From: Podochytrium sp. JEL0797
Lineage: Eukaryota; Chytridiomycota; Chytridiomycetes; Chytridiales; Chytriomycetaceae
Direction of reading: 5' to 3'
Assembly: GCA_027596195.1 (NCBI GenBank)
Contig: JADGJG010000913.1
Span: 1 to 10,999 of the forward strand
Length of the DNA stretch: 10,999 nucleotides
Numbering within the stretch: the first letter of the stretch is position 1; every line of letters begins with the position of its first letter. The notes beneath the pieces are model-generated. The model did no database searches. It saw nothing but the letters and a program-made list of their open reading frames with translations, and was not told the DNA's origin. This document shows, one piece after another, positions 1-10,999 of this stretch. The position numbers were made by a program, and so were the translations under genes.

Positions 1-118
1 ATCAATCTCCATCAGTAATCGAAGACGGACGAAAGACACGAAGGGTGGTGATGCAATCACAGACGAACGTTGCTGATGCATCAACACGGAATCCTGACAA
101 AGGGGGCCCAACCCAAAG

Positions 119-176
119 CGATTGCAGCCCGATGGCTGCTCAAATTTTCACTCAATCGCAGTCCAATGACTGTCCA
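119..176 (+). repeat. Imperfect 24-bp direct repeat, 34-bp period
   Basis: Positions 119-142 and 153-176 align without gaps with 17 of 24 identities. All seven differences are transitions (C/T or G/A). The copies share the cores GCAG, CC, ATG and CTG. Short tandem repeats in U3 often act as enhancer units, but no function can be shown here. The transition-only divergence fits cytosine deamination or a RIP-like process, which is inference. Confidence 0.5.
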
Positions 177-603: not shown

Positions 604-1412
604 ATGAGCGACCAACTCTCAGTCACTGACGCCTCCCAAGACCAAGTCATGGATGGTACTCCTCCAACCCCACAACCCTCCGCCGAGCAGCAGAGGATTC
701 TCGCCCTCGAGCGCCAGCTCGCGATCTTCCAAGAACAAGAGACCACCAGACTTGCGCGCCTTGCGATGGACCAACGCCACTTCGAGGCCCTGGAATCCCT
801 CGCCGCGGTCCTCGAGGAGCGCTTCAAGGACGCGGACGAAATCCCCCGGCTCACGAGGGAGTTCAAGGAGCTTGCCGAGGTCGGCCCTGTGTCGCCCGAT
901 TCATACGTGGCAACACACCGCGTGTGGGACTTGGTGGAACGCAAGGACAAGACTAAGAGTAAGTATATCCCCCTGGCTGGCCTTGATGGCTTGACCCACG
1001 GTGTGTCCCGTGTTTTACCCTTGATTGAATTCCCTCTCTCTCTACTCCCAGAACTCGAAGCCAAGGAGTTCTACCGCGGGGTGAACCAAGCCGACAAGTT
1101 CAACAACATGAGGGACTTCATGTACGCTGCTCAACACATGTCCAAAGACGCGGCCGCCCATGTTGCTGCCAGTGCCGGAGAGTTTGTGTCGGCACAGCAC
1201 GTGACGACTCAGCGTTTCCGCTCGGCCAAGCAAGTGGCCAAACGACACCGAAGTGAGTGTTCTATATCGGATTTTGGGGACACGCTTCCTCATTATAACC
1301 CCTTCTTTCAGGGAATGACAACAATGGCGACGAACCCGGCGGAAACGGTGGTCGCAGCAACCCCAGTGGCGCTACTCCTCGTCAAGGAGGGCGCTACAGC
1401 AGGGATATCTAA
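604..1412 (+). CDS. Predicted spliced first ORF, 218-aa Gag-like/nucleic-acid-binding protein
   Basis: Removing introns 959-1051 and 1253-1311 joins three exons (604-958, 1052-1252, 1312-1412; 657 nt) into an open frame of 218 codons ending at TAA 1410-1412. The N-terminal third is rich in Glu, Leu, Gln and Ala with heptad-like spacing, probably a coiled coil. The middle is helical and Lys/Ala/His-rich. The last 33 residues, read in the frame reached by the second splice, are rich in Gly, Asn and Arg (for example GGNGGR and RQGGRYSRDI), much like the basic Gly/Arg tails of Gag and RNA-binding proteins. An AATAAA at 1440-1445 follows the stop. I recognise no named family. Both the introns and the product are inferred from sequence, without transcripts. 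The alternative is that the introns are retained and only the polyprotein is made. Confidence 0.55.
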
Positions 1413-4400
1413 TTTGTCTCCTCATATCACCGAATTTAAAATAAAGCGTCTTTTGATGACGAAATCTTACTCTTTGGCTGATCTGTTTGGAAATGGTATC
1501 ATTAGAATGTACCAAAATTTCATTTTTTACATGAATATCTTTTTGTTGATTTTCCCAACTAAAGTGGGAGCTTACAAAATCATCCCAAACCCGGAACTCC
1601 CCTTCCTAGTTGAGCACGATGCACCCCAACTTGTTAACGTGAGCATTCTGGACTCCCTGTTTATCCTCTCCTTGGTGGTAGTTATTCTTGGACACTTGTA
1701 CTTACGCCATCACAAATCACGCAGTATCACCATCGACGGGTCGACCATCACGCTCAACATCCTTGGAAAGCTCGTCAAGCTCGACCTCGTGCATGGAACC
1801 GAGTTCCAAGGAGTTGGTTCCAAGATTGGTGCCAAGCAGTCGCGGGTCATCTACCTCGTCCTGTGTCACTCCGTGGCTGCTTTCCAAACATTGGCTCCTC
1901 GCTACTCTGAGGAGTCATTGAAGACCTTGTTCAAAATCATCGCCTCCTTCCCCGGCAAGACGGTCGATGACATCCCTCCCGAGTACGTGGGTCTCAAGAA
2001 CCTCGCCCACCCCCAGGGATTCACGACCATGGAAGAAGCGGTTGACGCCTTGGACAACGTGTTCGAAATCACGCAGCACCCAGTGGGAGTTGCCGACGCC
2101 GCTGTCGACGAGGAGGCTTCTGAAACCAGCGCAGACGATTCTGTCGTTGCCCAGGCCTACCAGACTCCCCTTCCAATCCGCTCCACGGATGCCACTCGTG
2201 CTGGGGTTTCGGTACCCCGTCTCCCGACATCTCGTCAACCACTCCCTTCGTTGTTTGAGCCGGACACACTTCCAGCCATTGCTGCCATGCTCCAGACGGT
2301 GTTGACCACTGTAGCCCGAGGTCAAGAAAAGTACACTTCCCTGTCCGACATCACCAAGCAGCGGCTCCAGAATTGCAAGTTGAACCCGGAGAACGCGCCT
2401 CAGTACAAGCAGCTCCTTCATGGGCTCTATGAAGAGTTTGTCGGACCCAAGAAGATGCTTCTCCAGTCCGAGGAGGACATTCTGACACGGCACATTGTCG
2501 CCTGTACGGTGCCCGACGGGCAACTGGCCGTGCTCTTCCTCCGTCTGGTGAGCAGCAACTGCACCCGCGGGAACTTGAACGAGCAGTTCATGACCTTCTT
2601 CTTGGGCAACACCATCCAAGCCGCCAACATGAAGATGGCCGCCCAGTGGGAGTGGGCATCCGACAACGCTGTCATGGAGGCACAGTTGCTGTTGATGCGC
2701 AACTCCGAGCTGGAGCCAAGGCACCGCCTCAACCGGAAGGAACTCGTGCGCTCGTACGCGCTTGGCTTCGAAGCGAAGCAACCCCGCTCTTACGCTCAGA
2801 TGGTCGAGTCTTCCATCTTCTCTGCCTCTACCGGTGTCAAGGTGTCATGCTACGACGACGCTCTCGACTTGATGGATTACGCGAACTACTTGAAGACCAA
2901 GGGCTTCTCGGGTGCCACGCTCCCTCCCGTCCCTGCTGCTCTCGGCTCTGGACAAGAGAACCCCCGTCGCCTCGACTCGAGAACCAACCCACCTCCTGTT
3001 GTTGGCGGAGGGCGTCCCCTTGCGAATCCCGCGCGCAAGTCCACTTCTTTCCCACAACGTCCACCACTGGTGACTTTTGTCTCTCACTTGGAGGACCCCT
3101 CGGCACCTGACGTGGACATTACGGCCCTCGACAATGCGGATGACTTTTATGAGTCGATCTACGAGACCTTCGCAATGCACGTCGAGGATGAGGAGAAGAG
3201 AGACGAGTTCAAAAAGAGAGTCTTCCGTTGCTTCAACTGCGAAGAGGTTGGTCACTTGCGCAGAGAGTGCACCAACCCACCCAAAGGTGACGGTATGAAT
3301 CCTTCTCTTGAAACAACTGAAATTTCCCCTATTCAGACCGTTCTTCCAAGAGCACTCGTTGATTATTCAAGCGCGTCAGAAGGAGCGACCTCAGGGGAGG
3401 AGGAGGAAGGCCCTTTGGAAATTGTTTCTTTGAATAAAAAATCTGTTGGTTCGGCACCTGAGGCCGCAAAAAACTGGGACAAACAAATTGAGGAAACGCA
3501 TTGCGACGAAACAGCAATGGATGAAGAGGTCCATTACTGGAATTGTGTAAAACCAGGCTCACTCGCGTGTCAAGCACAACTCTTCGAAGAGTTTCGGAAT
3601 CAATGGACCGCCATTCCCCTCGGACAATCGACCGTCTCGAAAGAAGTCGACACGGCAGGGGGAATAGTTTCTTGCATGAAGAAACTCAATCTCGACTCGA
3701 ACAAACGCGTCAAATTTGACGACAACGTCGAAGGTGCGTTTGTCGACTGGTCCTTCGCGACCACCAGCTTGTGCATGGTACCCAGCGATCGAAACTGGAC
3801 AAAACAGAACCAAAAACCTCAGAAGGAGGGGTACAGAAAGTCACATGGGGTGGTTCACAGCCAAGGGTGGATTGGATCTGTTTTTGTAACCGACTTGCTG
3901 CTTGACAGTTGTGCCAACGGCGCCGTGATGGATTTCGACTTTTATATGAGTTTGGGAAATCGACCCCCGCTAATCCCTGTGAAAAAACCGACTCTCAACC
4001 ACGGTATAGGTGGTGCAACCTCCGTGTTTGGATTCAGTACTATTCTCACATGTATTGGGAAAGCGCCAGTTCTGCGCCAACCAGTCCGGTATGCGATCAT
4101 CAAAAATTGCCCACGACCTGTCATCCTGGGTACACCCCAATTAGAACAATTCCAAGTCGACTTGTTATTCACCATCGACAAAGTGTTCTGGGGACCTGAC
4201 CTAAAAGCTCACGCGGATACCTTGAGTCCCGAGCTCAAAGTCGCAATTCGCGGCTCGAAAACACCGAGATTAAGCATGCCGCTCAGGTATTACACCGAAC
4301 ACATTCCGGAGGAAGTCTTGAAGGCGAATGCTCCCAAGCAAATGCGGTTAGAAGAAGACTTGGTCATGACGCGCAATTACAAGTACCGGGCCAACATTAA

Positions 4401-7400
4401 GCTGCCTAATTCGCTCGATCACGAGGCTCTAAGCTTGGCTGGTACATGCTTTGTAATTGGCCTTCCTGAACTGGCAGACAAGGGCGTTTTCATCACCAAA
4501 ACAATCTATAATTCTTCTGATATCCTCAAAGGAAGCGTGCCCATCGAAATTTGTTATGTCGGAATGAAACCCTTGCGCTTGCCTGCTTTCTCCGTCATCG
4601 CGACACTCGAGGGGGGTGGCCAATATGACGTCAGCATTCTCAATGTCCCCGAAGAAATAAACGGGTCTCAAACCGATTTGGCCACCATGGTGACTGCAGC
4701 GACACACTTCCAACCGCACGACAACGAGTCGTTCCTTGAATATCTCAAAAACGGAAAGCCGGAGGTTGATACTTCCCCCCCCACTGAGGGAGGTGAGCCT
4801 GACGGAGAATTACCGGATACAATGGTTACGGAAACCGTACCGGAAGAAGGACTCCCGTTGGCATTTGATGATGACGAATTGGACAAAATCTTCATGAAAT
4901 TGCCCAAGGTACGAGAGATTTATACCGGTCGAAACGCCCTGGTAAAAAACATACAACGGAAGATTCTTCGCTCACGACCAAGAATCCGAAAGCTCCTCAC
5001 TTTCCTGGATGAAAGTGATACCGAGGATACGCGTAATCTGTTGATGAACTCAACACCAACACGAGACACCTCGAAAGAAGAGAAACGTGATTATATCCCG
5101 GAACCCGAGGTCAAAGATGACCAAGAATTCATTTCAAAGTTTGACCTCGAGCACATGGATAACCTTCCCAACCTTTCCATAAAGGAAAAACTTGTTGACA
5201 TGTTGCTTGAATTCCGAGGCGTGTTCACTACCCGGATGAAAACGGGATCTCAAACCCTACCAGAGCATGAGATTGACACAAAACCAGGCGCCCGTGTCCC
5301 ACACTCACCGCCGTACCCGGAAGGGCCGGGGCGAACAGCGGTACTGCGTGAACACATTCAGAAGATGCTCGACGATAACGTCATTAGACCATCAAAGTCT
5401 CAATACGCATCTCCGGTTGTATTGGCGAAGAAACCCGACGGCAGTTGGCGTTTTTGCGTTGATTACCGCAAATTGAATGAAATCACCGTACCCGATCGGT
5501 ACCCCTTGCCCAATATTGAGGACATGTTCACAACAATTGGGAATCGATACTACTTCAGCAGTGTCGATCTCCAATCCGGGTTTTGGCAAATTAAGCTGGA
5601 CGAAGAAAGTAAAGCCAAAACGGCTTTCATATCCTCGCAAGGGCTTTTCGAATTCAATGTTCTCCCATTCGGGCTCACGAATGCGCCACCGACGTTCCAA
5701 CGTCTGATGGATGTCGTCCTCGCCGGATATAAATACGTATTCGCACTCGTTTACATCGATGACGTCGTTATTTATAGTGATGATGAGGATGACCACCTCG
5801 AACACATTCGCCTCATTCTACAAAGAATGCACGACTACAATTTGAAAATAAAACCATCGAAGTGCCATTTCTTCTACACTGACCTGCCCTTTTTGGGACA
5901 CGTCATCTCGAAGGAAGGATTGCGCGTCGACCCCAATAAAATCGCAACTCTCGAAAACTGGCCCGTTCCGAAAACGGTGAAAAAACTCCAACAGTTCCTA
6001 GGGTTTGCGAATTACTTCAAGCGTTTTGTGAAAAGCTTTGCGCAAACGGCATTGCCTTTATACCACCTTTTGAAGGAAACAACGCCATGGAAATGGACAC
6101 CTGATTGCGAGGACGCGTTTAAAACGTTGATTTCCAAACTCCAGAAAGACATCGTACTCCACAATCCAACGGAGACGGACGAATTCATCATCGAATGCGA
6201 CGCATCCAGTAACGCGCTGGGAGCAGCGCTATACGCGAAGGGTGTCACCAGCGCGCGGACAGCCCGGAAACCCATCGCATTCATCTCGAGAACCCTCACA
6301 CCCGTTGAGCAACGGTACTCAAACACGGATCGAGAAGGCCTCGCCTGCGTGTGGGCCGTAAACTGCTTCGACAAATGGATTTGGAATCGCCCTGTCACCA
6401 TCGAAACTGATCATTCAGCATTGGTCCCGCTCTTCCACAAGGGCGACCTGACAGGAAGATTCGCAAGATGGGCATACGCATTGTCTGACTACGACATCAC
6501 GTTGGTACACGTGCCAGGGAAATCCCAAGTTGTTGCCGACGCGCTGTCGAGAGCCAATATCCACAAGGCAAAAGCCTCCGCAGACGAGACCGACATAATC
6601 ACCATGTTCTCCTTCCGGAGGAAGGACATTCTCAAAAAAGAGGCCAATAGTCACGGAGGTGACCAAGGGGTTGATGAAACTCTCGAGACATTCGTGAGCG
6701 AGGTTTCAATGGAACTACCCCCATTAAAAAATTTATTCCAAACATACGTGTTTGGTCTTTCGAACAATAAGGACGAGCCTGTCCCAAAAAACAAGGCTGA
6801 ACATGCAAAAAGCGAATTTGTCAGATTATTCACGTTATTGGTGGAAACGGACGAGACTCACAAACTTGTGAGTGACTTGTCCAAGCGGATCCTGAAATAC
6901 CGAAAAAAGGAAGGAATCAAGTCCATCACGGACCTCCGAAAGGAAGTCAAACGGTCTCCCGCTTTCAAAGCGGGACAGAGCAGTCTCAATGTCCTGACTT
7001 GGAATATCAATGGATTCCGACACGTGTTCAAGAAACACGTCAAAGAACATGATCTCGCCAAAGAGAAAATGGAGATGCAACTGGACCACTTCTTCAATTC
7101 GACGGATTGCGGAGTCATTTGCCTGCAAGAGACTCGAATGGGAGTGAACGCCAAGAGCAAGAACATTTTCGAGGCCATGCGAAATCTCCACCAATGGAAC
7201 TGTTACTTTAACGACAAAAACACCGGTTACGCAGGCGTTGCCGTTATTATCCGAAAAGAATTGGCACAGAAAGTTGATGATGTTATCATTTTGCCCGAAA
7301 TGGGCGATTGGAAGGACGACGAAGGCCGCGTCATCACTATTCTGGTGGGCGCAATCGCAATCGTTACCGCGTACATTCCTAGTGGAATGCGAAAAGATGA

Positions 7401-10400
7401 CAGACAAGAGTTTAAACTCCAATTCCTCGAGGAATTCAAGGCACACTGCGACAAGCTCCGAGATACTCACCTTGTTATCGTAGCAGGCGACTTCAACGTC
7501 GCACCCTCACCCAGAGATGTTTTGGAATTTGTTGAAAAAGAACCCGGATTGAAGGACCGGTTCCGATCCACCATCACAAAGGAGGAACAAGAATGGTTTA
7601 ATTCAATGTTGGTGAACTTTCACGACGGGTTCCGAATTAAGCACCCCCACGACATGGGAGCCACTTGGACACTTAAAACGGTTGATGGAAAAGAGTATCC
7701 TTTCTGGCGTATCGACCATTTCCTCATTGACAAACGAGTCTCTCCCGACTGTTTCGACATCCGCGTCAACACTCGAAACACAATGAGTGACCATCTGCAA
7801 TTGCGTGCTGACTTGAAGCTGGATCATTTCGATGTCCCCTTGGTCAACCAGTCCACATGGATCCCCGCCGAAGGAGCCCAGGAAGGCGAAAATGCGACAT
7901 ATGTGATGGAGTGTTATCTCGGCCTCACGTCCCTCCCCCTGTTCGGGCTCGACCCCAAGAAAATGCGGGAGTTACAACTCAAGGATGCCCATTTCGGAGA
8001 AGTGATTCGCTTCTTGGAAGACGGTACAATTCCGGTCGAAAAAGATGCCGAGGAGATGCGGACTCTCTCGAGACACTTTGTGCTTGACAACGCCGGTCTG
8101 CTTTATCTGGTTTCCGACATTACGTCGAAATCTGTTCGACGCCAACCTGGTCGTATCGCTTTATGCGCGCCCGACTCACTGCGGCGAGAAATCCTGGAGC
8201 GTCACCATGATGACATTTACAGCGGTCACTTGGGAGCTTCGAAAGTTCTTCCCACCCTCATGGACCGATTCTGGTGGCCTAATATGGCGTCTCAAGTAAA
8301 GAATCATATCCAATCGTGCGTGGACTGTCAAAAGTCGAAGGATCACTCAGTCAAAACGGGTTTTGTACACCCCATTCCACTCGGCGAATTCCCGATGGAA
8401 CGAGTCTTTGTTGATTTCATGGGTCCCATGACGGAGACTGAGGACGGAAATAAATATGTCATGGTCCTGGTGGACAGTTTTACGAAGTGGGCGGAAGCGA
8501 TCCCGCTCCCCGACATATCGGGTCCCACCGTGGCCAAGGCGCTTGTAAAAGATGTCTTCTCAAGGACTGGTATTCCAGTGTTCCTACACTCGGATCAAGG
8601 CCCCCCCTTTGACGACAAGTTGATGAGAGAGCTTAGCAAAATGCTTGGGTTCAGCAAAACGTTCACCGCACCGTATTGGCCTCGCGCCAACGGCCCCGTC
8701 GAACGGTTAATTAAAACTCTTTCGCAAGAGTTGCGAGCGTACATCAACCAGTATGATTACAACGACTGGGATGAGATTCTGCCTTTCATCCTTTTCGCAT
8801 ACAGAACGCACGTTCACTCGTCAACGGGCGAAACCCCATTCTTTATGTACCATGGGCGCGACGCGCGCCTTCCCTCCGATTTGTTTTTCGGAATCAGTCC
8901 GGATGATCCCCTGTATCCGAAGCCGACACTTGATCCCCAAGCCGGTGAAGAAAGTGACGATGAGCCCGACGTATTCCTCACGGAGGTCGGCCACAGCCCC
9001 CGTGACGCGAAGAATTTCAGATTCCCGAATCTCGCCATTGCGGAGTTCAGCAGTTTGAAGCAGTTTCAAGACAAGTGCTGCAAAAAGATGCACGGATTCC
9101 ACAAGGACGAACAATTATTCGAAACCCTTCGGGATGTTTTCGAGCACTTTGAACTTGACGTGTTGTGTTTATCTTACGAACCCAGGAGGCAGCGAAGTTC
9201 AACGAGTGACTTCCCCGGATATTTCTATCTCCGGGACGGAAGTATTGTTTCTATGAAAGACCACGCGTACCGACTCAACCCTGAGTCCGATACGCCTATT
9301 GTGTGTACACCCCGACAAAAAGCCAAACGAATTTCTGTAGTTTATGCGCGACAGGGTACCCTCAACATCGGACCCCCTCCTTTGTCTCTCGACGATGTCG
9401 AAGGCGAGGTCAAATACCCATTCCTTTGCACGGGTGCCGTGAATCAAGTTGTGTGTGTCCACCGATGTTTCCGACCTGACGGGTCGCACCTTGATAAGCA
9501 GCAAATACTTTTTGATCCTCTCAAGAAGTCCTCGGTGGTGTTCTCGAATTCGCCGATGTGGGACAACTCCGGCAAATTCGTGCGGGTAAAAAGCCCATTG
9601 CTGTCGATCGAAACCGACAGCCGACACGGCTCGTATGTCTTCGTGAGCGAGACATCGGACGAGATGGAGTTTGAGACGTATCATGTGAAGCTTGATGGGG
9701 AAGCCTTGGAATGTTACATTCTGGAGGAAGACGTACATACCAGTGTACCCACCCCCGACGAGGCCCGCGTCGCCACTTTGAGGAGTATTCTCCTTGGCTT
9801 GCAAGCGAGCCAAGACGTCATCAAAGCAAAAGTTGCACAAAATCAAGAGAAACAGCGAGAGCTGTCGGAAGAAAATGACCATGCACCGCATGAGTTTGAC
9901 ATTGGAGATCGAGCGTGGCTCTCAGTCCCCTTGCAAGGTGAATCTCAGCGTTTGGGTGTCCCCAAGAAGCTGATTTTTAGGTGGGTGGGACCTGTTCGCG
10001 TTATCGCCCGATCTGGCGGAACCAGTCAGACACACTACACTGTTGTCGAGACTTTCCCAGGAGGTGAAATCACATGTCGGAAAGTACACGTTAGTAGGCT
10101 CCGACCTTTTGTCGCAAGGGTACCAGTGGATTCGGCAGAAGACGCCGCCGCCTTGGCAGGCGACGATTTCGAAGCCGAACTCAAGAAATTTGAGGAGGCG
10201 TTGTTACTCAAACAACGACCACGGCATTCGCACAAGAGTAAGCTCTCCGGTACCAATCTTTGGATGGCCCGGAAGTTTGACCCTGATTTCGAGGAACGAG
10301 ACGTTCACGACCCGAAATTAATCATTAAGCAAGTGCTTGACGTCGCGTTCGATCGCGACCGATCCGGTTCATTTGTATACCGAGTAGTGGCCCTGGACCA

Positions 10401-10713
10401 AAGTCATCGCGATGCCTGGTGGCAGAAACATGACGACATGCCGGAAGCCGTGCTTGAAGAATTCTGGCGGCAGATGCGCCAGAGGAAGAGTGGCTGGTGG
10501 ACCCGCTACTCCAAATGGAGCCGCACCCAAAGGAAAACCGTTGATCCCTTGCCAAGAGCTGTCAATGTTGACCAGGCCGAGCTGCCTGAAAGGGTCGACG
10601 TACCCATCGCCAAACCCCTACCTAGGCGACCGCGGGCTGCCACGCCACCCCGCCCACTAGCTGCCTCTCGAGAAGAGAGGGCAGAAGCGCGCTCAAAACG
10701 AAGAGGGAGTTAG
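604..10713 (+). CDS. gag-pol: Giant Gag-Pol polyprotein with embedded ExoIII/APE1-type endonuclease
   Basis: This is a 3369-residue frame without a stop or visible frameshift. ATG 604 has A at -3 and follows an A-rich leader. Domains in order: coiled-coil N-terminus (about 25-80); hydrophobic stretch (302-370); Gag-like helical region (550-830); CCHC knuckle (876-889); protease (D1101, ILG 1174-1176); RT (1552-1778, YIDD 1717-1720); RNase H (D1866, E1911, D1936, D1979); ExoIII-like endonuclease (2127-2406); integrase (H2C2 2535-2575; D2604, D2664, E2700); unknown insert (2770-3052); GPY/F (3053-3169); chromodomain-like (3239-3291); basic tail. It should yield structural and enzymatic proteins by proteolysis for reverse transcription and integration. 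Part of 959-1724 is probably intronic in at least some transcripts, so the mature polyprotein may start later or lack those residues. Typical Ty3/gypsy Gag-Pol totals are about half this size. Confidence 0.88.
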   Translation: MSDQLSVTDASQDQVMDGTPPTPQPSAEQQRILALERQLAIFQEQETTRLARLAMDQRHFEALESLAAVLEERFKDADEIPRLTREFKELAEVGPVSPDSYVATHRVWDLVERKDKTKSKYIPLAGLDGLTHGVSRVLPLIEFPLSLLPELEAKEFYRGVNQADKFNNMRDFMYAAQHMSKDAAAHVAASAGEFVSAQHVTTQRFRSAKQVAKRHRSECSISDFGDTLPHYNPFFQGMTTMATNPAETVVAATPVALLLVKEGATAGISNLSPHITEFKIKRLLMTKSYSLADLFGNGIIRMYQNFIFYMNIFLLIFPTKVGAYKIIPNPELPFLVEHDAPQLVNVSILDSLFILSLVVVILGHLYLRHHKSRSITIDGSTITLNILGKLVKLDLVHGTEFQGVGSKIGAKQSRVIYLVLCHSVAAFQTLAPRYSEESLKTLFKIIASFPGKTVDDIPPEYVGLKNLAHPQGFTTMEEAVDALDNVFEITQHPVGVADAAVDEEASETSADDSVVAQAYQTPLPIRSTDATRAGVSVPRLPTSRQPLPSLFEPDTLPAIAAMLQTVLTTVARGQEKYTSLSDITKQRLQNCKLNPENAPQYKQLLHGLYEEFVGPKKMLLQSEEDILTRHIVACTVPDGQLAVLFLRLVSSNCTRGNLNEQFMTFFLGNTIQAANMKMAAQWEWASDNAVMEAQLLLMRNSELEPRHRLNRKELVRSYALGFEAKQPRSYAQMVESSIFSASTGVKVSCYDDALDLMDYANYLKTKGFSGATLPPVPAALGSGQENPRRLDSRTNPPPVVGGGRPLANPARKSTSFPQRPPLVTFVSHLEDPSAPDVDITALDNADDFYESIYETFAMHVEDEEKRDEFKKRVFRCFNCEEVGHLRRECTNPPKGDGMNPSLETTEISPIQTVLPRALVDYSSASEGATSGEEEEGPLEIVSLNKKSVGSAPEAAKNWDKQIEETHCDETAMDEEVHYWNCVKPGSLACQAQLFEEFRNQWTAIPLGQSTVSKEVDTAGGIVSCMKKLNLDSNKRVKFDDNVEGAFVDWSFATTSLCMVPSDRNWTKQNQKPQKEGYRKSHGVVHSQGWIGSVFVTDLLLDSCANGAVMDFDFYMSLGNRPPLIPVKKPTLNHGIGGATSVFGFSTILTCIGKAPVLRQPVRYAIIKNCPRPVILGTPQLEQFQVDLLFTIDKVFWGPDLKAHADTLSPELKVAIRGSKTPRLSMPLRYYTEHIPEEVLKANAPKQMRLEEDLVMTRNYKYRANIKLPNSLDHEALSLAGTCFVIGLPELADKGVFITKTIYNSSDILKGSVPIEICYVGMKPLRLPAFSVIATLEGGGQYDVSILNVPEEINGSQTDLATMVTAATHFQPHDNESFLEYLKNGKPEVDTSPPTEGGEPDGELPDTMVTETVPEEGLPLAFDDDELDKIFMKLPKVREIYTGRNALVKNIQRKILRSRPRIRKLLTFLDESDTEDTRNLLMNSTPTRDTSKEEKRDYIPEPEVKDDQEFISKFDLEHMDNLPNLSIKEKLVDMLLEFRGVFTTRMKTGSQTLPEHEIDTKPGARVPHSPPYPEGPGRTAVLREHIQKMLDDNVIRPSKSQYASPVVLAKKPDGSWRFCVDYRKLNEITVPDRYPLPNIEDMFTTIGNRYYFSSVDLQSGFWQIKLDEESKAKTAFISSQGLFEFNVLPFGLTNAPPTFQRLMDVVLAGYKYVFALVYIDDVVIYSDDEDDHLEHIRLILQRMHDYNLKIKPSKCHFFYTDLPFLGHVISKEGLRVDPNKIATLENWPVPKTVKKLQQFLGFANYFKRFVKSFAQTALPLYHLLKETTPWKWTPDCEDAFKTLISKLQKDIVLHNPTETDEFIIECDASSNALGAALYAKGVTSARTARKPIAFISRTLTPVEQRYSNTDREGLACVWAVNCFDKWIWNRPVTIETDHSALVPLFHKGDLTGRFARWAYALSDYDITLVHVPGKSQVVADALSRANIHKAKASADETDIITMFSFRRKDILKKEANSHGGDQGVDETLETFVSEVSMELPPLKNLFQTYVFGLSNNKDEPVPKNKAEHAKSEFVRLFTLLVETDETHKLVSDLSKRILKYRKKEGIKSITDLRKEVKRSPAFKAGQSSLNVLTWNINGFRHVFKKHVKEHDLAKEKMEMQLDHFFNSTDCGVICLQETRMGVNAKSKNIFEAMRNLHQWNCYFNDKNTGYAGVAVIIRKELAQKVDDVIILPEMGDWKDDEGRVITILVGAIAIVTAYIPSGMRKDDRQEFKLQFLEEFKAHCDKLRDTHLVIVAGDFNVAPSPRDVLEFVEKEPGLKDRFRSTITKEEQEWFNSMLVNFHDGFRIKHPHDMGATWTLKTVDGKEYPFWRIDHFLIDKRVSPDCFDIRVNTRNTMSDHLQLRADLKLDHFDVPLVNQSTWIPAEGAQEGENATYVMECYLGLTSLPLFGLDPKKMRELQLKDAHFGEVIRFLEDGTIPVEKDAEEMRTLSRHFVLDNAGLLYLVSDITSKSVRRQPGRIALCAPDSLRREILERHHDDIYSGHLGASKVLPTLMDRFWWPNMASQVKNHIQSCVDCQKSKDHSVKTGFVHPIPLGEFPMERVFVDFMGPMTETEDGNKYVMVLVDSFTKWAEAIPLPDISGPTVAKALVKDVFSRTGIPVFLHSDQGPPFDDKLMRELSKMLGFSKTFTAPYWPRANGPVERLIKTLSQELRAYINQYDYNDWDEILPFILFAYRTHVHSSTGETPFFMYHGRDARLPSDLFFGISPDDPLYPKPTLDPQAGEESDDEPDVFLTEVGHSPRDAKNFRFPNLAIAEFSSLKQFQDKCCKKMHGFHKDEQLFETLRDVFEHFELDVLCLSYEPRRQRSSTSDFPGYFYLRDGSIVSMKDHAYRLNPESDTPIVCTPRQKAKRISVVYARQGTLNIGPPPLSLDDVEGEVKYPFLCTGAVNQVVCVHRCFRPDGSHLDKQQILFDPLKKSSVVFSNSPMWDNSGKFVRVKSPLLSIETDSRHGSYVFVSETSDEMEFETYHVKLDGEALECYILEEDVHTSVPTPDEARVATLRSILLGLQASQDVIKAKVAQNQEKQRELSEENDHAPHEFDIGDRAWLSVPLQGESQRLGVPKKLIFRWVGPVRVIARSGGTSQTHYTVVETFPGGEITCRKVHVSRLRPFVARVPVDSAEDAAALAGDDFEAELKKFEEALLLKQRPRHSHKSKLSGTNLWMARKFDPDFEERDVHDPKLIIKQVLDVAFDRDRSGSFVYRVVALDQSHRDAWWQKHDDMPEAVLEEFWRQMRQRKSGWWTRYSKWSRTQRKTVDPLPRAVNVDQAELPERVDVPIAKPLPRRPRAATPPRPLAASREERAEARSKRRGS
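959..1051 (+). other. Predicted intron 1 (93 nt, in frame)
   Basis: The donor is GTAAGT at 959-964. The acceptor CCCAG ends at 1051 after a strong C/T tract (1031-1050), with possible branch sites in the TTGATTGAAT stretch just before it. The length is 31 codons and it contains no in-frame stop, so retention or removal leaves the frame unchanged. The encoded residues are hydrophobic and Pro/Leu-rich, unlike the charged flanks, which favours real splicing. The intron contains the copy of the 184-233 repeat. Confidence 0.65.
1253..1311 (+). other. Predicted intron 2 (59 nt, frame-switching)
   Basis: The donor is GTGAGT at 1253-1258. A branch-like TATAAC lies at 1294-1299 and the pyrimidine-rich acceptor CTTCTTTCAG ends at 1311. 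Fifty-nine is not a multiple of three, so splicing moves translation into the frame that ends at TAA 1410-1412, whereas retention keeps the 3369-codon frame open. The sequence is compact and matches fungal-type introns in size and signals. Confidence 0.65.
1413..1724 (+). other. AT-rich junction segment with hydrophobic reading and possible third intron
   Basis: This stretch is visibly richer in A/T than its surroundings, especially up to about 1560. In the long frame it reads as two hydrophobic segments (residues about 302-325 and 347-369) that would be membrane-spanning, which is odd for a Gag region. An AATAAA is at 1440-1445. GTGAGC at 1639 and GCAG ending at 1724, with CTTAC at 1710-1714, form a plausible 86-nt intron. 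Using it, ATG 1619 (A at -3; its upstream frame is closed by TAG 1607-1609) would enter the long frame at 1725 and give a 3002-aa Gag-Pol. This may therefore be an inter-ORF spacer, not coding sequence. The two readings cannot be decided without RNA. Confidence 0.45.
1725..3300 (+). other. Gag-like region with capsid-like helices and CCHC zinc knuckle
   Basis: Residues about 550-830 are mostly helical, polar and aromatic-containing, as in Ty3/gypsy capsid domains, with stretches such as LVRSYALGFEAKQPRSYAQM. This is followed by a Pro/Arg-rich linker. The zinc knuckle at 3229-3270 (residues 876-889) has the spacing C-X2-C-X4-H-X4-C (CFNCEEVGHLRREC), the standard nucleocapsid motif for packaging RNA. 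Residues 375-545 before the capsid-like part are of unknown function and include an acidic Ala/Asp/Glu/Ser segment. The knuckle assignment is secure; the capsid assignment is by position and composition only. About 30 codons after the knuckle a possible short intron (ending 3336) would close the Gag frame at TGA 3360-3362. Confidence 0.75.
3856..4203 (+). other. Retropepsin-like aspartic protease domain
   Basis: The segment LLLDSCANGAVMDF has D1101 as the likely catalytic Asp after a hydrophobic strand, and VILGTPQLEQF (ILG at residues 1174-1176) matches the conserved ILG motif near the C-terminal end of retroviral and retrotransposon proteases. The spacing of about 73 residues between them is normal. 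The domain would work as a homodimer to cut the polyprotein. The catalytic triplet reads D-S-C-A rather than D-S/T-G-A; the Gly to Cys change is unusual in this family. Position between the zinc knuckle and RT supports the call. Confidence 0.72.
4204..5256 (+). other. Long protease-RT spacer with a possible beta-domain
   Basis: About 350 residues separate protease from RT, much longer than in simple Ty3/gypsy elements. Residues about 1255-1345 look strand-rich and end in PLRLPAFSVIATLEGGG, which resembles the short beta-domain that follows protease in some gypsy-like and related elements (the pattern V-N-x-P-x-x-L-x-x-G-T-x-I-A-x-L). Then comes an acidic Pro/Glu/Asp/Thr-rich linker (4771-4890) and a basic RKIL-RSRPRIRK patch (about 4954-4995). 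The end, up to the TLPEHEID stretch, is the usual lead-in to RT. I do not recognise a named domain. Confidence 0.5.
5257..5937 (+). other. Reverse transcriptase domain
   Basis: All hallmark Ty3/gypsy RT blocks are present: LPEHEIDTKPGA, YASPVVLAKKPDGSWRFCVD, YRKLN, the SSVDLQSGFWQI block with the first catalytic Asp, FEFNVLPFGLTNAPPTFQRL, and the catalytic YIDD at residues 1717-1720 (5752-5763), followed by FLGHVISKEGL. It copies the element RNA into cDNA. No catalytic residue is missing. The usual connection segment (VPKTVKKLQQFLGFANYFKRF) follows at 5938-6174 and leads into RNase H. Confidence 0.97.
6175..6555 (+). other. RNase H domain
   Basis: The segment IIECDASSNALGAALY holds D1866, TDREGLACVWA holds E1911, ETDHSAL holds D1936, and VVADALSR holds D1979. 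This is the complete D-E-D-D catalytic set of Ty3/gypsy RNase H. It degrades the RNA strand of the RNA:DNA hybrid during reverse transcription. The closing VPGKSQVVADALSR motif is typical of the family. What follows is not integrase, as in ordinary elements, but a 140-residue linker and an endonuclease domain. Confidence 0.95.
6556..6981 (+). other. Linker between RNase H and the endonuclease domain
   Basis: These roughly 142 residues (1985-2126) are rich in Lys, Glu, Asp and Leu, probably helical, with several basic clusters (FRRKDILKKE, RILKYRKKEGIKS). No known motif was found. It could be a DNA-contacting or tether segment captured together with the endonuclease, but nothing in the sequence proves this. 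Confidence 0.4.
6982..7821 (+). other. ExoIII/APE1-type endonuclease (EEP superfamily) domain inside pol
   Basis: Every active-site block of the exonuclease III / AP endonuclease family is present in order. LTWNINGFR carries N2134 (N2136 sits at the APE1 D70 position). ICLQETR carries the metal ligand E2176. TAYIPSG carries Y2257. VAGDFNVAP carries D2296 and N2298. WRIDHFLID carries D2371, with W2368 at the abasic-pocket position. SDHLQL carries D2396 and H2397. The segment EEQEWFNSM...FHDGFRIKHP is typical of ExoIII/APE1 rather than of LINE-type endonucleases. At about 280 residues it is full length, so cleavage at abasic sites or 3'-end processing of DNA is plausible. Its place between RNase H and integrase of an LTR element is highly unusual. 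The family call is secure; its role in the element is unknown. Confidence 0.93.
8077..8910 (+). other. Integrase: H2C2 zinc module and DD35E catalytic core
   Basis: The N-terminal module reads HHDDIYSGHLG ... SCVDCQKSK, giving H2535-X6-H2542-X29-C2572-X2-C2575, the zinc-binding H2C2 fold. The core holds D2604 (FVDFMGP), D2664 (LHSDQGPPF) and E2700 (NGPVERL); exactly 35 residues lie between the second Asp and the Glu, the DD35E signature. ILPFILFAYRTHVHSSTGETPFFMYHG ends the core as in other gypsy elements. It would insert the cDNA into the host genome. The usual SDQGTEF / SDQGPNF motif is SDQGPPF here; all catalytic residues are kept. Confidence 0.95.
8911..9759 (+). other. Unrecognised domain of about 280 aa inserted in integrase
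   Basis: In ordinary Ty3/gypsy integrases the core is followed within roughly 50-80 residues by the helix and FxxGDxVWL strand of the GPY/F module. Here residues 2770-3052 intervene. The segment opens with an acidic linker (EESDDEPD), then a helical part (EFSSLKQFQDKCCKKMHGF...), then a strand-rich part with several Cys residues (CTGAVNQVVCVHRC) and many aromatic and beta-branched residues. It ends at the helix RVATLRSILLGLQASQ that normally precedes GPY/F. I recognise no family. It could be a captured host domain or a lineage-specific targeting module. Confidence 0.6.
9760..10110 (+). other. Integrase C-terminal GPY/F module
   Basis: A helix with many Gln and Lys (residues 3055-3090) leads into FDIGDRAWL, then KLIFRWVGPVRVI with G3129-P3130, and ends at CRKVHVSRLRPF (3158-3169). 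These are the landmarks of the GPY/F module of Ty3/gypsy integrases, which helps multimerise the enzyme and bind DNA. The third position is Val (GPV) instead of Tyr or Phe. Confidence 0.85.
10318..10476 (+). other. Degenerate chromodomain-like segment
   Basis: Residues 3239-3291 follow the chromodomain pattern: a first strand LIIKQVLD, a strand FVYRVVALD in place of the canonical YLVKWKG, and a closing helix AVLEEFWRQM, which matches the LLEEFW-type helix of retroelement chromodomains. The aromatic cage residues of canonical chromodomains are largely replaced, as in the group II chromodomains described for chromoviruses. It may guide integration to chromatin. The remaining tail to residue 3369 is Arg/Pro-rich and basic. 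The assignment is by pattern and position only. Confidence 0.5.
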
Positions 10714-10999
10714 TGGCTCTTCTTGGGCGCGTAGGTGGAGATGTTTGGAGAAGGGAGGTGCTATGGTGGGATTGTTGTATATAGGTGTGGTTTAGATGGA
10801 GGCTGATGATTGGACGGATTTGGGGACCCCTCGGCCACTGCGAGTTTGCTTGTCACGACACCAAGTTGACGGAGCAACTCCCGGGTTATTTTCGAGGCCA
10901 CTGTGAGATTCCCATCTCACGGGGGGTTGGTTGAGTTTGTTCTTTAGTTAGTTGTTGGATGTATTCAGTTTTGGGCTTGGGATTTTTCTCCGCGGGCGG
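10714..10999 (+). other. Non-coding 3' region with a polypurine-tract candidate
   Basis: This G/T-rich non-coding stretch follows the stop codon. GGAGAAGGGAGG at 10747-10758 is 12 purines followed by TG (10759), the form expected for a polypurine tract and the start of a 3' LTR, but no copy of what follows is found in 1-603. A shorter purine run lies inside the end of the gene (10700-10709). A perfect hairpin lies at 10903-10920, and a 12-base near-repeat at 10833-10844 and 10896-10907. No gene or clear poly(A) signal is seen. Confidence 0.4.
10903..10920 (+). repeat. Perfect hairpin GTGAGAT-TCCC-ATCTCAC
   Basis: Seven exact base pairs enclose a four-base loop, with one further wobble and one C-G pair outside, followed by a run of six G residues. 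It overlaps the second copy of a 12-base near-repeat (GGCCACTGYGAG at 10833-10844 and 10896-10907). No function can be assigned; it could be a structured RNA element near the 3' end of the transcript. Confidence 0.45.

Follow-up and report, generated by a model that had tools for sequence, protein, structure and literature searches.

A conserved ExoIII/APE1-type nuclease domain between RNase H and integrase in a Ty3/gypsy retrotransposon lineage of a chytrid fungus

What might a repair-type nuclease be doing inside the pol of a long terminal repeat (LTR) retrotransposon? The question is raised by a 10,999-nucleotide stretch of DNA from the chytrid Podochytrium sp. JEL0797, hereafter the window, which is the entire contig C905 (JADGJG010000913.1) of a 24.40 Mb assembly in 995 contigs. 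The window holds one Ty3/gypsy element, recognized as such by its reverse transcriptase (RT)–RNase H–integrase order, its Ty3-type RT, its LTRs and a short target duplication. A preliminary description of the window had located a complete ExoIII/APE1 domain in the pol of such an element, past RNase H and ahead of integrase, and this placement is borne out by the order of Pfam matches along the frame: zf-CCHC, RVT_1, RT_RNaseH, Exo_endo_phos, Integrase_H2C2 and rve. The Ty3 type of the RT is judged by structure match; window positions 5242–6570, comprising RT and RNase H, find the Ty3 RT as their best match in the PDB (E 3.1e-86), the next kind being the 'Enzymatic polyprotein' 8r0s (4.2e-70), which we take to be a caulimovirus RT.

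The nuclease, its junction and its constraint

The Exo_endo_phos match spans residues 2131–2397 of the frame (E 1.1e-14; 55.2 bits against a cut-off of 24.5) and covers the model from end to end (1–225 of 225). The nuclease stretch also scores 132.5 bits with TIGR00633, the NCBIfam model for xth, for which the curated cut-off is 99.05. The catalytic residues named in the preliminary description (N2134, E2176, Y2257, D2296, N2298, D2371, D2396 and H2397) were all found in the window's frame, together with the W-R-x-D pocket motif (W2368-R2369-I-D2371), and the predicted fold is of ExoIII/APE1 type. On all these counts, the domain is a complete ExoIII/APE1-type nuclease of the endonuclease/exonuclease/phosphatase (EEP) kind.

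The domain is not peculiar to one contig. Two further families, on contigs C642 and C404, carry the nuclease at the same RNase H–integrase junction with the catalytic residues unchanged, in frames that run unbroken through RT, RNase H, EEP domain, H2C2 and rve; the C642 frame is broken 3' of the integrase core, outside the pieces compared below for selection. As these homologous frames cross the same junction, an assembly join or a one-off chimera, both raised at the outset, is ruled out. The nuclease and its linkers fill an enlarged gap between RNase H and H2C2, which measures 559 residues in the window, 550 in C642 and 504 in C404, as against 120, 196 and 152 residues in the EEP-free elements C381, C318 and C344. 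Identity to C404 is 44–45% for the nuclease, 61% for the RT and 65% for the integrase, and the RT motif is YIDD in the window and C642 and YVDD in C404.

Across the genome, PF03372 matches at least ten places: five in this lineage (one in the window and two units each in C642 and C404), two in C119, and one each in C55, C509 and C825. The paired units of C642 and C404 may be assembly duplicates, and we therefore count three families rather than five copies. Among 13 H2C2 integrase matches, five have a nuclease upstream, all of this lineage; the other eight lie on contigs without a PF03372 match. One of these eight, in C283, begins just 118 bases from the contig start, and its upstream part is out of view.

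Several contigs drew attention in their own right. Head-to-tail partial duplications of retroelements were observed in C642 at position 10545 (3.8 kb, 96% identity), C404 at 11658 (7.4 kb, 99.87%) and C119 at 19913 (7.3 kb, 100%). In both C642 and C404 the unit end coincides with the contig end, in C642 at a point within the open frame, and this suggests assembly faults in their tandem units. Positions 15859–23199 of C119 form a LINE-like element (LINE, long interspersed element) with an EEP endonuclease before the RT in one long frame. An open frame in C55 (5021–6493) combines Exo_endo_phos (44.3 bits) with a domain resembling 2'-5' RNA ligase, which scores 27.1 bits against a cut-off of 27, and perhaps encodes a host RNA-processing enzyme.

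Selection was gauged by the ratio of nonsynonymous to synonymous substitution (dN/dS), calculated after Nei and Gojobori with our own script; the main pair is the window and C642 unit 1. Over the 280 codons of the nuclease, dS is 0.991 and dN 0.029, giving a dN/dS of 0.029, close to the values for RT (0.025) and RNase H (0.027); the integrase stands at 0.014. The linkers on either side evolve faster (0.147 and 0.085), which makes the nuclease an island of constraint. The stretch before the RT (0.105), the protease region (0.194) and gag (0.37, at a dS of 2.0) complete the profile for this pair. Comparison of the window with C642 unit 2 gave 0.035 for the nuclease, and that between the two C642 units 0.083 from few changes (13.5 synonymous, 4.5 nonsynonymous); the value of 0.135 between window and C404 means little because dS is 3.8 or saturated. 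Purifying selection on the nuclease is thus strong between window and C642, about as strong as on RT and RNase H. The argument that intact residues reflect selection is upheld, and the relaxed selection that would have spoken against function is not seen.

Table 1. Positions of the features of the element in the window
Feature	Position	Strand	Basis and remarks
5' LTR, its 3' end (...CTGACA)	1..99	+	contig starts inside the LTR
Presumed primer-binding site, conserved GGGGGCCCAACCC	102..114	+	just inside the 5' LTR, within the stretch 64-130
gag-pol	604..10713	+	single uninterrupted open frame, 3369 aa
gag zinc knuckle (CCHC)	3226..3276	+	PF00098, residues 875-891
Aspartic protease region	3871..4158	+	motif and alignment only, without Pfam match
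Reverse transcriptase, YIDD	5428..5907	+	PF00078 1.5e-37, RVT_1 residues 1609-1768
RNase H	6175..6492	+	PF17917 6.6e-27, residues 1858-1963
ExoIII/APE1-type EEP domain, complete	6982..7821	+	residues 2127-2406; Pfam, TIGR00633, catalytic residues, predicted fold
Integrase H2C2 zinc domain	8170..8343	+	PF17921 2.9e-20, residues 2523-2580; genome profile scan places it alike
Integrase core	8392..8679	+	PF00665 2e-11, rve residues 2597-2692; D-D35-E present
Chromo-like C-terminal stretch (weak)	10321..10473	+	aligned to the PF00385-like stretch of C404
3' LTR, its 5' start (TGTGAGAT...)	10902..10999	+	contig stops inside the LTR

The remaining features of the frame are listed in Table 1. Aspartic proteases usually carry D-S/T-G; the motif reads LLDSC in the window and C642, and C404 shows DTG at most one column away. 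The DD35E residues of the integrase are the D of VFVDFMG, the D of HSDQG and the E of PVERL. From the integrase core to the C-terminal tail, about 340 residues (window 8824–9850) are of no recognized kind. The C-terminal 631 residues of the window's frame have no Pfam match at E ≤ 10, chromodomain included, and the corresponding stretch of C404 matches PF00385 at 3.5e-05 with 24.1 bits, under the cut-off of 25.1. Within gag, residues ~340–366 (window 1621–1700) are strongly hydrophobic and membrane-anchor-like, with a 19-residue mean hydropathy of up to 2.5.

Origin of the nuclease

The preliminary description had judged the domain closer to cellular ExoIII/APE1 enzymes than to LINE endonucleases, and profile comparison agrees. 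A profile of the five element units finds Helicobacter pylori XthA (1.4e-23), zebrafish APE1 (2.7e-21) and human APE1 (2.4e-17) in the PDB, and reaches the LINE endonucleases at 1e-3 (LINE-1, 8sp5) and 5e-4 (the LTX construct 2v0r). The LINE endonuclease model PF14529 scores 15.1 bits on the window, under its cut-off of 27.4. Sequence profiles hence argue against a LINE source. A LINE inserted into a gypsy element was likewise considered and ruled out, as the only RT matched in the frame is of Ty3 type and precedes the nuclease, which itself scores as ExoIII.

A phylogeny was built from 42 rows, made up of 33 of 43 database proteins, the three element domains, C119 and five stretches from solved chains. 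The element domains form one clade with support 100/100 on the ExoIII side, on a long stem of 2.56 changes per column. Grouping this clade with vertebrate APE1 is rejected by the approximately unbiased (AU) test (p 0.00086); the test tolerates a grouping with LINE endonucleases (p 0.395), of whose two rows each sits on a long branch and one is incomplete. The domain was probably acquired once, before the families of the window, C642 and C404 split, and its ultimate source likely lies in the cellular ExoIII/APE1 family.

The more specific proposal, capture of a repair gene of this host, is a conjecture: the stem is long, the vertebrate-APE1 clade is rejected, and no stand-alone xth-family donor gene scores over the TIGR00633 cut-off in the assembly, a search in which the best candidates were scored and which intron-split genes could escape. 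The five element units are the only sequences of the assembly over that cut-off, with C825 weak and C119 at 78.5 bits. Elsewhere, the protein database yielded 43 ExoIII-type relatives at no more than 31% identity (28% for the best three); few of these come with named organisms, all bacterial, and eukaryotes may be thinly represented. Three bacterial ExoIII loci at 25–26% identity were found in genome_contigs. Among 461 long and 729 mid-length candidate proteins, none reached E ≤ 0.001. Alignments of the nuclease, the integrase and the RT likewise found no match in viral_contigs, a collection that may hold few retrotransposons and was searched without a positive control.

Element ends and possible roles of the nuclease

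How the element inserts bears directly on what its nuclease could do. Self-comparison of the window found no repeat common to its two ends, and the ends were instead pieced together from separate contigs. Positions 1–99 recur at 100% identity in C21 and C85, where they are followed directly by two different, unrelated flanks; positions 10902–10999 recur at 100% behind an unrelated flank in C819, and at 93% in C310. The LTRs so delimited start with TGTGAG and end with TGACA (TG...CA). The junctions TTGCGA/TGTGAG in C819 and TGACA/GCGAAC in C21 combine into a single insertion with a 4-bp target duplication, GCGA, which fits one of the two candidate 3' flanks (C21, not C85; chance about 2/256). 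This is the only insertion with both flanks, and the LTRs are known from their ends only, as the contigs of this assembly break off within them. Contig overlaps of one locus may partly account for the 100% identity between the common ends; C21 and C85 are distinct sites. A non-LTR element, once suggested by the missing repeat in the window and the head-to-tail units of C642, C404 and C119, was dropped when the LTR ends and the duplication were found. LTR ends, the single 4-bp duplication and the DD35E integrase point to ordinary integration.

Priming may be unusual. Window positions 64–130 are common to C642 and C791 at 87%, and include the presumed primer-binding site GGGGGCCCAACCC. This site lacks a TGG start, and its 13-nt complement has three exact matches across the assembly, every one in these elements, on which grounds a departure from usual priming may be suspected. 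By eye, and if one gap is allowed, the complement around GGGGGCCCAACCC resembles TTTTGGGCTTGGG, which lies at 10969–10981 near the beginning of the LTR; from the sequence, self-priming of the element is possible.

We tentatively favor, at a probability of about 0.45, a model in which this Ty3/gypsy lineage acquired an ExoIII/APE1 nuclease and kept it as a working pol enzyme that acts on the element's own cDNA. The nuclease would travel in the particle alongside RT, RNase H and integrase, where it would incise abasic (AP) sites on the 5' side of the lesion and free 3' ends of blocking groups. The resulting 3'-OH ends could be extended by RT and used by integrase, such that cDNA damaged, for example, after removal of uracil or oxidized bases might still be finished and integrated, with integration proper left to the integrase. 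A more elaborate form of the model, possible but doubtful, would make pol a private base-excision-repair system in which AP endonuclease and RT, the latter as repair polymerase, mend cDNA in the particle or pre-integration complex and render host repair dispensable.

Several points weigh against a role in cDNA repair. The dN/dS values come from one family pair, window and C642, with C404 too diverged. The pocket W is no proof of AP specificity because it occurs in only 20 of the 35 aligned rows. ExoIII/APE1 enzymes act as AP endonucleases, 3'-exonucleases, 3'-phosphatases and RNase H-like nucleases, and predicted fold and active site would fit all four activities alike. Evidence for function consists of sequence comparison and the predicted fold.

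Enzymes of this family can also cut RNA in hybrids, and the nuclease adjoins RNase H in the frame; it might therefore work on RNA in RNA:DNA hybrids or on primers. Its part would be to help RNase H remove genomic RNA, the polypurine primer or a first-strand primer of unusual type, the last of which the primer site described above would hint at. We consider this rather unlikely, since RNase H itself is present and constrained, no EEP match accompanies the other Ty3 integrase matches of this genome, and the peculiarity of priming is read from a single motif. Nicking of the chromosomal target would draw on the part that related endonucleases play for LINEs, one such LINE-like EEP element, C119, residing in the same genome; the LINE clade that the AU test tolerates and the truncated head-to-tail units of C642 and C404, if real, would fit. 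The preliminary description had proposed such nicking as a second, integrase-independent insertion route, and a choice of sites on behalf of the integrase is a further version. TG...CA ends, the GCGA duplication at the one site with both flanks and the retained DD35E residues fit normal integration instead; moreover, the profile lies far nearer ExoIII/APE1 than the L1 endonuclease, and the C642 unit that ends in frame at the contig end looks like an assembly fault. We regard target nicking as very improbable, and the integrase-independent route is not sustained.

That the domain is a passenger, fused by chance or through assembly error and without function, could appeal to the fragmentation of the assembly and to the irregular tandem joins that C642 and C404 show, but is made exceedingly improbable by the recurrence of the junction in three diverged families, the invariant catalytic set and the low dN/dS. 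A part in countering host defense, for instance through the processing of cDNA ends that are damaged or edited when the particle is attacked, is improbable as well: the sequence points to no particular defense, and the proposal overlaps with cDNA repair. In its favor, host–element conflict has figured in discussions of other enzymes that LTR elements acquired, namely a gypsy DNA methyltransferase (PMC5890265) and an orchid gypsy m6A demethylase (PMC9289625).

Comparison with known systems

The element resembles Ty3/gypsy elements (Metaviridae) in pol order, Ty3-nearest RT, CCHC knuckle, TG...CA ends, 4-bp duplication (at one site) and weak chromo-like tail, and differs in its one fused frame of 3369 residues and, from the EEP-free Ty3/gypsy elements of the same genome, in an RNase H–H2C2 gap of 504–559 rather than 120–196 residues. 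With the ExoIII/APE1 family (TIGR00633) it shares the whole domain, the catalytic residues and the predicted fold, here embedded in a retrotransposon polyprotein. APE-type LINEs such as C119 likewise join an EEP nuclease and an RT in one polypeptide; there, in contrast, the nuclease is N-terminal to the RT, no integrase match occurs in the C119 pieces scanned, the EEP domain stays under the TIGR00633 cut-off, and its only PDB match at E ≤ 0.001 is 2v0r, presumably an L1-endonuclease construct.

The nearest precedent, which lessens the novelty of the arrangement, is that of the Kuafuorterviruses as described in PMC11673190: LTR elements of eumetazoans, mostly 5–6 kb long, with an RT motif I/V/LADD, in which Exo_endo_phos occurs 'only ... 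sporadically' and is perhaps host-derived. Compared by that description, the present lineage differs in its YIDD (window, C642) or YVDD (C404) motif, which marks the Kuafuorterviruses as a different lineage, and in bearing the nuclease in all three families found. Other parallels are less close. Bdelloid LTR elements have also acquired a nuclease, but one of the DEDDy exonuclease family in a separate ORF3 (PMC5408684); KnitGypsy-Dnmt3 has an extra enzyme in the gypsy pol frame with Ka/Ks < 0.2, but this is a cytosine methyltransferase (PMC5890265); and Helentrons with AP-EN carry an AP-type endonuclease outside LINEs, but are Helitron-type DNA transposons without RT or integrase (PMC6431247). 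A dUTPase (PMC5408684, PMC2774666), the m6A demethylase of orchid gypsy elements (PMC9289625) and additional domains inserted in 'complex' fungal LTR elements (PMC3248453) extend the list. Among the literature matches listed, in a search that left subscription papers and Repbase outside, no report describes an ExoIII/APE1 domain conserved in the space from RNase H to integrase.

Taken together, LTR elements were already known to carry additional enzymes, and a conserved ExoIII/APE1 domain at the RNase H–integrase junction is apparently a new variant. With a repair-type nuclease as constrained as the RT, cDNA damage or cDNA ends may limit such elements and select for a fifth pol enzyme. The working rule by which an EEP nuclease denotes a non-LTR element is blurred by this lineage, which matters for the automatic classification of transposons.

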